DNA from: Methyloversatilis sp. XJ19-49
GTDB lineage: Bacteria > Pseudomonadota > Gammaproteobacteria > Burkholderiales > Rhodocyclaceae
Direction of reading: 5' to 3'
NCBI RefSeq assembly: GCF_024580145.1
Contig: NZ_JANINI010000001.1
Location: 67,550-131,549, forward strand
DNA: 64,000 bases
How positions within the stretch are numbered: the stretch's first letter is position 1; each line of letters opens with the position of its first letter. Positions 26,160-29,808 of this stretch are shown piece by piece. The notes under the pieces are model-generated. The model was not told where the DNA came from. It made no database searches and saw only the letters and a program-made list of their open reading frames with translations. Made by a program: the position numbers and the translations under genes.

Positions 26160-26276
26160 TCGGCAGGCAGGCGGCAGCGGCGCGGGCTGAATCGGGGATC
26201 AAGTCGGACCCGCACGCTGCCGTATACACAGACATCGAACCACATGCGCACCTCGGTGCGTCACGGAGAACATGTC

Positions 26277-27134
26277 ATGGGTGAGCCGGTGAATTCATCG
26301 CTTGAGGCACTGCAGCGGCTTTCAGCCGAACTTGAATCGGGCGACATCGTCTTCCCGACCAGCATCGATGTGTCGCTGCGCATCCGGCAGGCGCTTGAAA
26401 ACCCCGACATCAACGTCAACGAGGTGTGCCGGCTGGTTGGCGCCGAGCCGGTGCTCAGCGCGAAGGCATTGCGCCTCGCCAATTCGGTCGCCTACAACCG
26501 CAGCGGCAACGAAATCACCGACGTCCGCACCGCGGTGACACGCGTCGGTACCGAGCCGATCCGCATGCTCACGATGTCGCTCATCGTCCGCCAGATGGTC
26601 GATGCGCGCGCCGACGAACGTCTGCGCGTACTGACGCACGACCTGTGGCGGCACACCATCCACGTTTCGGCGCTGAGTTACGTGATCGCGCGTCGCCTTT
26701 CGCGGCTCAACGCCGATACGGCCATGTTCGCCGGTCTGGTCCATGAGATCGGCCAGTTCTACCTGCTGGCCCGCGCATCGGCCTTTCCTGCGCTGCTGCA
26801 GCGGGAAGCTGAACTCGGCGGACTGATGTTCAGTTTCAGCCAGAGTGTCGGCCGCGCTGTACTCGAATCGCTCAAGGTACCGGAACAGGTCATCGCAGCC
26901 GTCGATGGACCGTCGTTCGAGGGTGCCGTCGTGCCGCCCCGTTCGCTGGGTGATGTGCTGTTCCTTGCGGAAAGCATGGCGGCCTTCCCGAACCCGTTCA
27001 CCAACCTGTCGCCGGAAGAGGATGTTCTGCTTGCCGATGCAGCGACCTCTGAGATCGACAACGAAACGCTGGAGGCCGTGGTCGCGGAATCCAGGGAAGA
27101 GATCGATTCCATCATCGCCACTTTGCAGATATGA
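26277..27134 (+). CDS. HDOD-domain signalling protein
   Basis: A 285-residue single-domain HDOD protein. The pattern FPTSIDVSLRIRQALENPD..VCRLVGAEPVLSAKALRLANSVAYN is typical, and the degenerate HD region LVHEIGQFYLLARA near residues 163-176 shows an HE in place of the catalytic HD pair, as expected for the non-hydrolytic family. HDOD proteins act as scaffolds in cyclic-di-GMP signalling and chemotaxis-like pathways. I use ATG 26277 with a GGAGAA ribosome site; an ATG 33 bases earlier lacks one. It precedes a cyclic-di-GMP riboswitch and the DUF1631 gene. Confidence 0.85.
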   Translation: MGEPVNSSLEALQRLSAELESGDIVFPTSIDVSLRIRQALENPDINVNEVCRLVGAEPVLSAKALRLANSVAYNRSGNEITDVRTAVTRVGTEPIRMLTMSLIVRQMVDARADERLRVLTHDLWRHTIHVSALSYVIARRLSRLNADTAMFAGLVHEIGQFYLLARASAFPALLQREAELGGLMFSFSQSVGRAVLESLKVPEQVIAAVDGPSFEGAVVPPRSLGDVLFLAESMAAFPNPFTNLSPEEDVLLADAATSEIDNETLEAVVAESREEIDSIIATLQI

Positions 27135-27254
27135 GCGCCCGGGGTCTGTTCACAATTGGTCCGTGCGCGGCCAGCGCATGATTTACGAATCGAATGCGAA
27201 CAGGCCCTCAAGTCTTCCGCAGCGCAGTCGTTAAATGATGTGACGACATATTGA

Positions 27255-27345
27255 AGCTGAACCAGGGCAAACCCACCGAAAGGTGGCGACGCAAAGTTTC
27301 CGGTCTACCGGGTGCCCAGCGCCCCATGACAGCGGGGCCGCCGCG
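27255..27345 (+). promoter_or_regulatory. Cyclic-di-GMP class I (GEMM-I) riboswitch
   Basis: The sequence follows the GEMM-I consensus part by part: CCAGGGCAAACC at 27262-27273, a P1b hairpin CCACC-GAAA-GGTGG with the conserved GAAA tetraloop, then GACGCAAAG, TTCCGGTCTACC, and the second helix ending GACAGCGGGGCCGCCG near 27329-27344. These elements form the ligand pocket and the tetraloop-receptor contact in characterised examples. It lies about 90 bases before the start codon of the DUF1631 gene and fills most of the 298-base gap after the HDOD gene. Confidence 0.92.
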
Positions 27346-27376
27346 AAGCTGCACGCCGCCTCGCGTCCGGTCCTGA

Positions 27377-27426
27377 CTTTGCGCCCCGTTTCAGCCTTTA
27401 CCGACCGCCGTGTGCGGCCGCAAAGG
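27377..27426 (+). promoter_or_regulatory. Candidate expression platform of the riboswitch (ribosome-site helix)
   Basis: CTTTGCG at 27377-27383 is exactly complementary to CGCAAAG at 27419-27425. The latter runs into the AAAGGTGA Shine-Dalgarno stretch of the DUF1631 gene. A smaller CCGC/GCGG hairpin can form inside the loop. No T tract is present, so control of translation is likelier than of termination. Whether ligand turns expression on or off cannot be read from the sequence. Confidence 0.5.
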
Positions 27427-27432
27427 TGAATC

Positions 27433-29808
27433 ATGAGCGCTGTACCCCTGCCGAAACAGACCGCCGTACCGCCCGAACGAGGGCGGGTGATCAGCGACTG
27501 CCGGGATTTCACGATCCGGCGCCTGCGTGATTCGCTGCGCGGCATGCTCGAAAAGATCGAGGAAGATCTGGTCGCCCGGGCCGAGGCGGAACTCGACCGC
27601 GATCAACGCAATCTGTACATGTTCACCTGCGGCAAGGCCCGCCAGCAGTGGGCCGGCATCGAACAAACCTTCATCGATCACCTGACCCGCTATTTCGACG
27701 CGCGCGTACGTGGCGAACCGATCGAATCATCACGATCCGCAGTGCCGACGTCGCTGGACGAACTCAGTCTGGTCGGCGAAGACGACCTGACGCAGGATCT
27801 GGCCGTTCATGAACTGACCCGCAAGCTGAAGGAACACTGCGACGAGGAGCTGTTCGGCGTCGAACAGCGTCTGGGCTCGCTGCTCGGCAAGACGGATCCG
27901 ACCGATCAGGACAACCCGCTGGGCACCGAAGGCGTCGCCAAGGCGCTGCGCGCGGCGTGCGAAGAAGTCGATGCCAGCGTGCAGATGCGTCTGGTGCTCC
28001 TGCAGTCGCTCGAATCGCAGATTTCACGCGAACTTTCAAAGCTGTACCAGGACCTGAACGTACGATTGCAGCGGCAGAATGTGCTGCCGGGCCTGCGTCG
28101 TGGTTTCCGTCGCCACGCCGGCTCGCGCTCCGGCGTGGCCGGCGTGGCGCATGGACAGGGCGTCAGCGCAGCCGGTGATCAGGCAGGTGTGGCCGGCAGC
28201 GGCTATGCACCGTCCACCAGCGGACAGGGCGGCTTTCCTGCAATAGGCGGTGCCCACGACGCGGGCCCCACCGCATCGATGCCCGGTTTCGGCATTTCGT
28301 CGGTGGATGGCGGCTTCGGCGAACAGGCTGCGTTTGGCGCCGCAGCGGAGGCTGACGGCGATATCTACGCCATGCTGTCGCAACTGGTCCAGGGCCAGAT
28401 GGCGGCACAGGGCATTACGCTGCCGCCGATCGGCGCAGCCGGAGCAAACCCGGCCGGGCTGGCGTCGCCCTTCGTGTTCGAGGCGCTCAGCGCACTGCAG
28501 TCCGACGCCGACCTTTCTGTGCCGGCCGCTGCGTCCTTCAACCTCGGCATTCCGCCCAATCTGCTGCGCAATTTCCGTACCTCCGAACTGGGCCGCCATC
28601 TCGGGCAGTTCGATGCGATCACGGTCGACATCGTCGCCATGCTGTTCGATCTCATCTTCGACGACGCCGATATCGCCGATCCGATCAAGGCGCTGGTCGG
28701 CCGGCTGCAGATTCCGCTGGTCAAGGTGGCCATGCTGGACCGCAGCTTCTTCTCCAGCAAGGCGCATCCGGCGCGCCGACTGCTCGACCTGATTTCCAAC
28801 TCGATGATGCGCTGGGGGCGCGACGTCGGTCACGAAGACCCCCTCTACATCAAGCTGGCGGAAATCGTCGACCGCATCCTGCGAGATTTCGATCGCGATC
28901 TGAGCCTGTTCGAGGCCTGCAGCGACGACCTGCGCGCCTTCGTCATCGAACTGGAAGCAGACGAGACGCAGCGCGCCGAAGCGGCAGCGCTGATCGCCAG
29001 CGCGCGCGAGCAGGAAAGACTGCGCCGCGAGGATGCGCGGCGAGTCGCCGACGACGAGATCGATGACCGGCTGCGCAAGCCGCTGCCCGGTGTGGTGCAA
29101 AGTCTGCTCGATGGCGTATGGCGGCGACTGCTGCGCAAGCATGTCGATACCGGTCCGGACGCGGCGGTCGATTACCAGCAGGCGCTCGCCACCATCGACG
29201 AATTGATCTGGAGCGTGCAGGCCAAGGCCGATGCGGATGAGCGCCGTGCCCTGGTCGTGGCGCTGCCCGGTTTGCTGCGCCGTCTCAACCAGGGCTTCGA
29301 CCTGGCAGGCGCCCATCCGGCCGACAAGCTGATGCTGCTCAACGGCCTGTTCGATCTGCACGCGCAGTGGCTCAAACCTGGTGCAGCGACAGCGCCGCCG
29401 GCGGTTGAACAGTGGGTGCCCGAGGCATACTCCGCGAATGACGATGTGCCGGCACCGGAAGTGGTCAGCGAGCATGTCGAACAGGACGGCCTGGAACTCA
29501 ATGACATTTCGTTGAATCTGCCGTCACCGCTCGACATCCAGGAGCAGGACCGCGTGTTCGAACTCAAGCGCGGCGACTGGATCGAGTTTCGCCAGGTTGA
29601 CGGTAGTTTCGTGCGCATGCGCCTGAACTGGGTCAGCCCGCAACGCGGCATCTACCTGTTCACCAATCCCGGTTCGACGCGGGCCACCTCGATCGCACCC
29701 GACGCGCTGGCGCTGCAACTGGCGAACGGCGAAGCACGCGTGGTCAACAATGAGCCGATGTTCGACCGGGCGGTCAGCCAGGCGCTCGGCCAGCAGCGCG
29801 CACATTAA
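27433..29808 (+). CDS. DUF1631 family protein under cyclic-di-GMP riboswitch
   Basis: A 791-residue, mostly helical cytoplasmic protein of the DUF1631 family, whose members are sometimes mislabelled thymidine phosphorylase. The N-terminal helical part (1-215) is followed by a Gly/Ala/Ser-rich linker (about 216-300), a long helical domain, and a C-terminal module, KRGDWIEFRQVDGSFVRMRLNWVSPQRGIYLFTNP as overall pattern near 710-745, that resembles a small beta-barrel. No enzymatic motif is visible. The upstream riboswitch and HDOD neighbour point to a surface, motility or biofilm role; this is inference. A GGTGA ribosome site precedes the ATG. Confidence 0.85.
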   Translation: MSAVPLPKQTAVPPERGRVISDCRDFTIRRLRDSLRGMLEKIEEDLVARAEAELDRDQRNLYMFTCGKARQQWAGIEQTFIDHLTRYFDARVRGEPIESSRSAVPTSLDELSLVGEDDLTQDLAVHELTRKLKEHCDEELFGVEQRLGSLLGKTDPTDQDNPLGTEGVAKALRAACEEVDASVQMRLVLLQSLESQISRELSKLYQDLNVRLQRQNVLPGLRRGFRRHAGSRSGVAGVAHGQGVSAAGDQAGVAGSGYAPSTSGQGGFPAIGGAHDAGPTASMPGFGISSVDGGFGEQAAFGAAAEADGDIYAMLSQLVQGQMAAQGITLPPIGAAGANPAGLASPFVFEALSALQSDADLSVPAAASFNLGIPPNLLRNFRTSELGRHLGQFDAITVDIVAMLFDLIFDDADIADPIKALVGRLQIPLVKVAMLDRSFFSSKAHPARRLLDLISNSMMRWGRDVGHEDPLYIKLAEIVDRILRDFDRDLSLFEACSDDLRAFVIELEADETQRAEAAALIASAREQERLRREDARRVADDEIDDRLRKPLPGVVQSLLDGVWRRLLRKHVDTGPDAAVDYQQALATIDELIWSVQAKADADERRALVVALPGLLRRLNQGFDLAGAHPADKLMLLNGLFDLHAQWLKPGAATAPPAVEQWVPEAYSANDDVPAPEVVSEHVEQDGLELNDISLNLPSPLDIQEQDRVFELKRGDWIEFRQVDGSFVRMRLNWVSPQRGIYLFTNPGSTRATSIAPDALALQLANGEARVVNNEPMFDRAVSQALGQQRAH

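Follow-up and report, generated by a model that had tools for sequence, protein, structure and literature searches.

Vc2 of Vibrio cholerae, which we take as the example of the c-di-GMP-I (GEMM-I) riboswitches collected in Rfam family RF01051, is the closest described counterpart of the RNA reported here. On the side of the motility genes, the closest system is the FliA-dependent flagellar regulon, which has YcgR as a c-di-GMP effector. In the window (the whole stretch of 64,000 nucleotides of Methyloversatilis sp. XJ19-49 that was analysed), we found a c-di-GMP-I aptamer at 27256..27345 on the forward strand, in front of a gene for a protein of the DUF1631 family (27433..29808, forward strand, 791 aa). 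Like Vc2, this RNA lies in a 5' leader, here with no terminator-like site detected, and it shares the aptamer fold and the core letters. It differs from Vc2-like riboswitches by its DUF1631 target and its FliA-type promoter, and also by a strand that can pair either with the aptamer or with the ribosome-site region, a feature that we followed in Methyloversatilis only. The same promoter motif stands before YcgR-type, motA, MCP and EAL genes in the genome; in contrast to YcgR, DUF1631 has no detected PilZ domain, and c-di-GMP would act on the DUF1631 message instead.

The riboswitch class has long been known, and DUF1631 is a recurrent target of it that is without a description in the searchable literature. 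A search for literature linking DUF1631 to a c-di-GMP-I riboswitch found none, most subscription journals lying outside that search, and no description of DUF1631 was found in literature on c-di-GMP-I riboswitches in Betaproteobacteria or Rhodocyclaceae. In the literature covered, DUF1631 appears as a table entry.

A class I c-di-GMP riboswitch linked to DUF1631

Infernal matched RF01051 to 27256-27345 of the forward strand over the full model length (59.0 bits against a gathering threshold of 35, E 5.6e-9 in the 64-kb window), and a tRNA is the sole other gathering-level Rfam match in the window. This element is a genuine class I c-di-GMP riboswitch. The earlier note had recognized the GEMM-I core elements from the sequence and proposed the search with RF01051; the score supports that recognition, and all of the motifs can be read in the sequence, namely GGGCAAACC at 27265-27273, GACGCAAAG, CCGGTCTACC, AGCGGGGCCGCCG and a GAAA-capped stem. 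The ligand-contacting letters, which we take to be G20, A47 and C92 in Vc2 numbering, are kept: read against that numbering, G is at 27266 and A at 27293, and CC at 27341-27342 stands at the CC of the consensus. The letters equivalent to G20 and A47, with the same numbering, are invariant in 16 aligned aptamers. The aptamer would be expected to bind c-di-GMP.

Two variant ligand types were considered. The cAMP-GMP (GEMM-Ib) variant is marked by A at position 20, and the window has G (27266) at the matching place, so it is not a member of that group. The c-di-GMP-I-GGC family, RF03167, belongs to the same clan as RF01051, and its consensus is GACGCGAA (CGCGAA), whereas the window reads CGCAAA. 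The G that would replace the first A of CGCAAA is missing from the window, whose best family is RF01051. Rfam gives the RF03167 label to four linked loci (L038, L041, L056 and L063). Because their letters are also CGCAAA and not CGCGAA, we did not adopt the label, which looks like a scoring effect rather than a sign of variant letters; a GGC-variant ligand was rejected for these loci because of the letters.

Two more c-di-GMP-I matches, of 65.9 bits each, are found on two other contigs of the genome. These loci (G000:C15 and G000:C16, or L001 and L002) have an identical ORF list over 3 kb, so they could reflect either a duplication in the assembly or a recent repeat. The c-di-GMP-I riboswitches of the genus that do not precede DUF1631 include these two (positions 1501-1590 of each locus) as well as L020, L064-L068 and L070. 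In L020 and L067, the gene at the riboswitch encodes a domain of the M12B-type metallopeptidases. Ten of the non-DUF1631 riboswitch loci were scored for sigma-28-like sites, and eight have a weaker one (9.5-12.5 of 16) at a distance of 9-10 nt upstream of the aptamer.

The aptamer is found directly upstream of DUF1631, on the same strand, in all 13 genomes of the genus that were examined, with 84-88 nt from its end to the start codon (for G154, the start codon was taken as the conserved MSAAP position). A comparison of DUF1631 leaders had been suggested beforehand, and it shows the riboswitch kept before the gene in 13/13 genus genomes. Among 150 genomes of the family, we found 144 riboswitch matches in 75 genomes, and 21 of these matches, in 21 genomes, precede a same-strand DUF1631 gene. 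The sample contains 37 DUF1631 genes above 380 bits, of which 21 are linked and 16 unlinked. For this count, the 144 riboswitches were paired with 56 DUF1631 rows, comprising 54 of at least 286 bits and two partial tandem copies; weaker rows were checked by eye, and none adjoined a riboswitch. G053 and G106 (L053 and L054), both among the 21, carry two tandem DUF1631-like ORFs behind one riboswitch.

A riboswitch match is present in 54 of 80 named DUF1631 loci, always on the strand of the gene, and absent from the other 26, as scored with a covariance model built on 16 linked aptamers including that of the window. The 80 loci rank highest among 104 that were found, and several of them are near-copies; the query alignment was riboswitch-linked in 6 of its 8 rows. 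Since the query was thus mostly riboswitch-linked and the model (R1) was itself built from linked aptamers, 54/80 should not be taken as the frequency across DUF1631 genes in general. A quickly built tree of 70 DUF1631 proteins, the window's among them and 51 with a riboswitch, requires 8 changes of the riboswitch trait, compared to 16.9 for shuffled labels; the tree came with long-branch warnings, and 11 of the 80 loci were left out of it as short, lacking a single ORF or near a contig end. The trait is therefore clustered on the tree, with several gains or losses. Titles of the linked records include Methyloversatilis, Uliginosibacterium, Sulfuritalea, Accumulibacter, Propionivibrio, Azovibrio and Sulfuriferula, and many unplaced Betaproteobacteria are also among the linked loci.

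The FliA-type promoter and the DUF1631 protein

At 27208..27234 of the forward strand stands a promoter of the sigma-28 (FliA) type, in which 11 nt separate TCAAGTCT from GTCGTTAA; it ends 21 nt before the aptamer. Compared to the sigma-28 consensus, which we take to be TAAAGTTT-N11-GCCGATAA, it matches 12 of 16 letters with the N11 spacer. All 13 genus genomes have such a site, scoring 11-14 of 16, and when 12 of the 13 genus loci are aligned, two short blocks stand out as conserved within an otherwise variable region upstream of the aptamer. Scans of 27100-27460 for a sigma-70 promoter and for an intrinsic terminator found neither.

Among the linked named loci, 15 of 53 score at least 12 within 100 nt upstream of the aptamer, a score that 0.4% of shuffled sequences and none of 1524 control windows attain, and the other 38 stay below 12 (L098, one of the 54 linked loci, lacks upstream sequence, and L132, which reads N upstream, was counted as a miss). 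Eight of the 15 belong to the Methyloversatilis clade and seven lie outside it (L096, L106, L111, L124, L135, L148 and L149). Since 37 of the 53 loci have no FliA-type site of at least 12 within 250 nt of the aptamer, the promoter is not general. In the riboswitch-less DUF1631 genes, of which 23 of 26 were scored, only L121 reaches 12 in the 350 nt upstream (1/23, with a control rate of 0.9%).

We then searched the genome with an exact motif pattern. It has six sites, compared to two for the reversed pattern, and the five other than the one before DUF1631 precede motA, a YcgR-type gene (PilZNR-PilZ), two MCP (chemoreceptor) genes and an EAL gene. As DUF1631 promoters served to define the pattern, the match in the window is by construction, whereas the other five are independent. 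Across the 13 genus genomes, exact sites number 75, compared to 12 for the reversed pattern. When up to one mismatch is allowed, the genome has 22 sites, hardly more than the 20 of the reversed control. The one-mismatch sites are mixed, because the proteins at 5 of 16 that were scanned are a flagellin, a GH114 protein, a FimV-like protein and two without a family. The genome encodes the FliA sigma factor (273.6 bits) and has 33 GGDEF matches. Use of this promoter by FliA would place the gene in the swimming-versus-settling programme, and the motif suggests that DUF1631 belongs there. The earlier note had reasoned that direct c-di-GMP control would place DUF1631 in the sessile/motile network; the FliA-type promoter backs this independently, and it is the recurrent riboswitch linkage together with this promoter that leads us to count DUF1631 as part of the genus's motility network.

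PF07793 matches the product of 27433-29808 with 518.8 bits (gathering 33.7, 3.6e-155) over residues 14-786, so that its earlier naming as DUF1631 holds across the whole protein. This is the single DUF1631 match in the genome, and its closest named relatives, with identities reaching 97%, come from Methyloversatilis. The Pfam description of DUF1631 states no function. The earlier note described the family as often mislabelled thymidine phosphorylase; two plasmid records that were checked both bear the DUF1631 annotation. An AlphaFold2 model from a 40-sequence alignment (mean pLDDT 80.2) is helical for the most part, with disorder in the middle and a small beta domain at the C-terminus. A single-sequence model of the C-terminal 135 residues reached a pLDDT of 58 and was set aside. 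Profile searches of solved structures gave 0 hits at E up to 10, and Foldseek against the PDB gave none at E 0.001 among the best 50 of 414 matches, where the best value is 0.48 and weak Tudor-like barrels occur. A PilZ-like C-terminus had been suspected from the sequence, but is unsupported by Pfam, motif and Foldseek: PilZ is not among the families listed for 40 DUF1631 members (the best 25 of 34 in Pfam), and the motif that we take for PilZ, RxxxR...[DN]x[SAG]xxG, is found in 0 of 40 DUF1631 C-termini. At E up to 5, the window's protein matches no profile other than DUF1631 and, weakly, an unrelated family.

The NCBIfam family PacR, NF058594, also resembles DUF1631 in the C-terminal half (residues 390-781, 210.5 bits). 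This is far below the cut-off of 1200, so that DUF1631 is not a PacR member; the likeness gives a relative of DUF1631 a gene name. Among the literature matches listed, no work on such a PacR was recognized. Upstream of the promoter lies a gene with an HDOD domain (26268..27134, forward strand, PF08668 with 108.6 bits). In an alignment of 160 nt inspected by eye, its 3' end is recognizable in 10 of 12 genus loci, reduced to a short remnant in L073 and not recognizable in L074; thus, the HDOD and DUF1631 genes tend to keep company.

Competing helices and the direction of the switch

We consider the following model fairly probable, at roughly 0.65. A sigma-28 (FliA)-type promoter would transcribe the DUF1631 leader, which begins with the aptamer. 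Without ligand, the strand 27376-27400 would be paired back onto the 5' strand and core of the aptamer. Binding of c-di-GMP would lock the aptamer and release this strand, whose 3' part would then close a hairpin over the Shine-Dalgarno sequence (27390-27399 with 27422-27430), and less DUF1631 protein would be made. DUF1631 would be a gene of the flagellar regulon that is read out at low c-di-GMP.

The switching strand (27376..27400, forward strand) has three possible partners in the leader: 27252-27268, the aptamer core at 27291-27297 and the Shine-Dalgarno region. In the minimum-energy fold of the leader alone, it lies on the aptamer 5' strand (27252-27268) and on the core (27291-27297), and the consensus fold of the 13 genus leaders likewise uses the aptamer 5' strand. 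The proposed ligand-free partner, consisting of this 5' strand and its lead-in, spans 27252..27272 of the forward strand. When the aptamer is forced to form, the 3' part of the switching strand (27390-27399) pairs with 27422-27430 instead, over the Shine-Dalgarno sequence, in a local hairpin (27390..27430, forward strand) of UUCA-G-CCUUU with AAAGGUGAA that holds an inner stem within 27402-27420. The same CCUUU strand of the window is thus on the aptamer lead-in in one fold and on the Shine-Dalgarno sequence in the other.

With the aptamer forced, the start site became costlier to open in 12 of 13 sequences, while the cost stayed unchanged in G154 (-0.06); for the window, it went from 3.5 to 5.0 kcal/mol. 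The mean openness of the Shine-Dalgarno sequence fell in 10 of 13. In eight representatives of the 13 genus sequences, the fraction of shuffled linkers with a rise at or above the natural one was 0.03, 0.07, 0.07, 0.12, 0.13, 0.47, 0.53 and 0.77, so that the rise is unusual in some species only. These model calculations point, weakly, to an OFF switch as likelier than an ON switch. The energy model charges 12.5-26.8 kcal/mol for forcing the aptamer, so either the fold is reached kinetically or tertiary contacts escape the model. Because of this large energy, switching would need to take place as the RNA is transcribed.

The same riboswitch and target could also work in the opposite direction, with c-di-GMP raising DUF1631, which would then act as a brake or settlement factor when swimming ends. 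The weakness of the direction calculation leaves room for an ON switch of this kind, and G154, G155 and G118 have a higher mean Shine-Dalgarno openness with the aptamer forced. In the ligand-free fold of the window, the start codon and 27425-27427 are also paired, in another structure, as an ON switch would have it, and the promoter motif is common to a YcgR-type gene, YcgR-type proteins being a known type of brake. The opening cost that is higher in 12 of 13 sequences, and unchanged in the remaining one, argues the other way, as does the course of the strand freed by the aptamer, which runs into the Shine-Dalgarno hairpin. We regard ON as unlikely, though as the most serious competitor of the OFF switch.

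The earlier note had proposed a different lock for the ribosome site, namely CTTTGCG at 27377-27383 paired with CGCAAAG at 27419..27425 (forward strand), which overlaps the Shine-Dalgarno AAAGG at 27422-27426. The two segments are indeed a perfect 7-bp complement in the window. A second copy of CGCAAAG, which was absent as a partner from that proposal, lies inside the aptamer at 27290-27296, within the core CGCAAAGU (27290..27297, forward strand) that offers an alternative partner for 27376-27383. We counted the cells of each helix pair by pair over the 11 distinct genus sequences. The 5'-strand helix (27252-27272 with 27378-27395, 14 pairs) is paired in 91.6% of cells, the conserved core of the local Shine-Dalgarno hairpin in 89.4%, and the core helix and the CTTTGCG-CGCAAAG helix in 83.3% each. 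As a lock, the latter therefore competes with a partner in the aptamer core that is equally frequent and is the one chosen by the minimum-energy fold.

The anti-aptamer helices (5' strand and core) show none among the 11 distinct sequences. The complementarity behind them is conserved, and in all 8 representatives the best duplex that the aptamer 5' strand forms with the linker exceeds the mean of the shuffles in strength, the fraction of shuffles at or below it being 0.002-0.083 overall and 0.011 or less in 4 of the 8. The local hairpin has a covariation score of 0.124, reached by 0 of 500 shuffles; its inner-stem pairs change from CG to UA in three distinct sequences and from CG to GC in one, and its count of pairs changed on both sides is reached by 167 of 500 shuffles. 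The CTTTGCG-CGCAAAG helix scores higher, at 0.156, a value that 10 of 500 shuffles attain, and its both-sided changes are reached by only 1 of 500. However, its three both-sided changes are all confined to the divergent G158, in which the remaining half of this helix does not pair. G158 is poor in all four helices, with 3/6 pairs in this one, 1/6 in the core helix, 7/14 in the 5'-strand helix and 6/12 in the local hairpin. The CTTTGCG-CGCAAAG helix keeps 3/6 pairs in G154, G118 and G158 and 5/7 in G070, whereas the local hairpin keeps 12, 10, 6 and 11 of 12 pairs in G154, G118, G158 and G070, respectively, and appears to be better conserved in most species. On balance, the CTTTGCG-CGCAAAG helix is one of several competing pairings and not the best supported, and that it is exactly the lock of the ribosome site seems improbable.

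The aptamer could also have decayed or become promiscuous and have lost its control of DUF1631. This would agree with the window copy having the second lowest score among the 21 linked ones of the 150-genome sample, but is very improbable, as the conserved core letters are kept and both aptamer and promoter persist in 13/13 genus genomes despite variation in the stretch that separates them from the gene.

Leaders in other genera take other forms. Outside the Methyloversatilis clade (L084-L092), a start codon lies 11 nt past the aptamer in 17 of 45 linked named loci. In 6 of 10 loci picked by eye (L108, L113, L116, L127, L142 and L161, on the Accumulibacter/Propionivibrio side of the tree), a small ORF begins 8-14 nt past the aptamer and ends on the DUF1631 start as ATGA, and translational coupling is possible at these six. 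A conserved leader peptide was considered for a separate, hand-picked set of nine loci. It was rejected for lack of coding constraint, because changes fall evenly on the codon positions (189, 195 and 181 in the six loci of equal length) and silent changes are not in excess in three pairs of close relatives.

Implications for the DUF1631 family

The recurrent linkage and the FliA-type promoter are what this analysis adds to the earlier note, whose observation is confirmed and whose core interpretation holds. Tentatively, and with doubt slightly outweighing belief, we propose that DUF1631 is an unrecognized family of the motility programme of Betaproteobacteria. In Methyloversatilis and some other lineages, its synthesis would pass a transcription gate, FliA, and a translation gate, the c-di-GMP riboswitch, and in Methyloversatilis a single strand would choose between the aptamer and the ribosome site. 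The recurrent riboswitch shows the signal that is answered by DUF1631 synthesis, and the FliA-type promoter, in the part of the family that has it, shows the programme. For a family of no described function, this yields a role in motility as a hypothesis that can be tested directly, and the c-di-GMP riboswitch regulon of the Rhodocyclaceae and their relatives, Accumulibacter included, gains a recurrent target.
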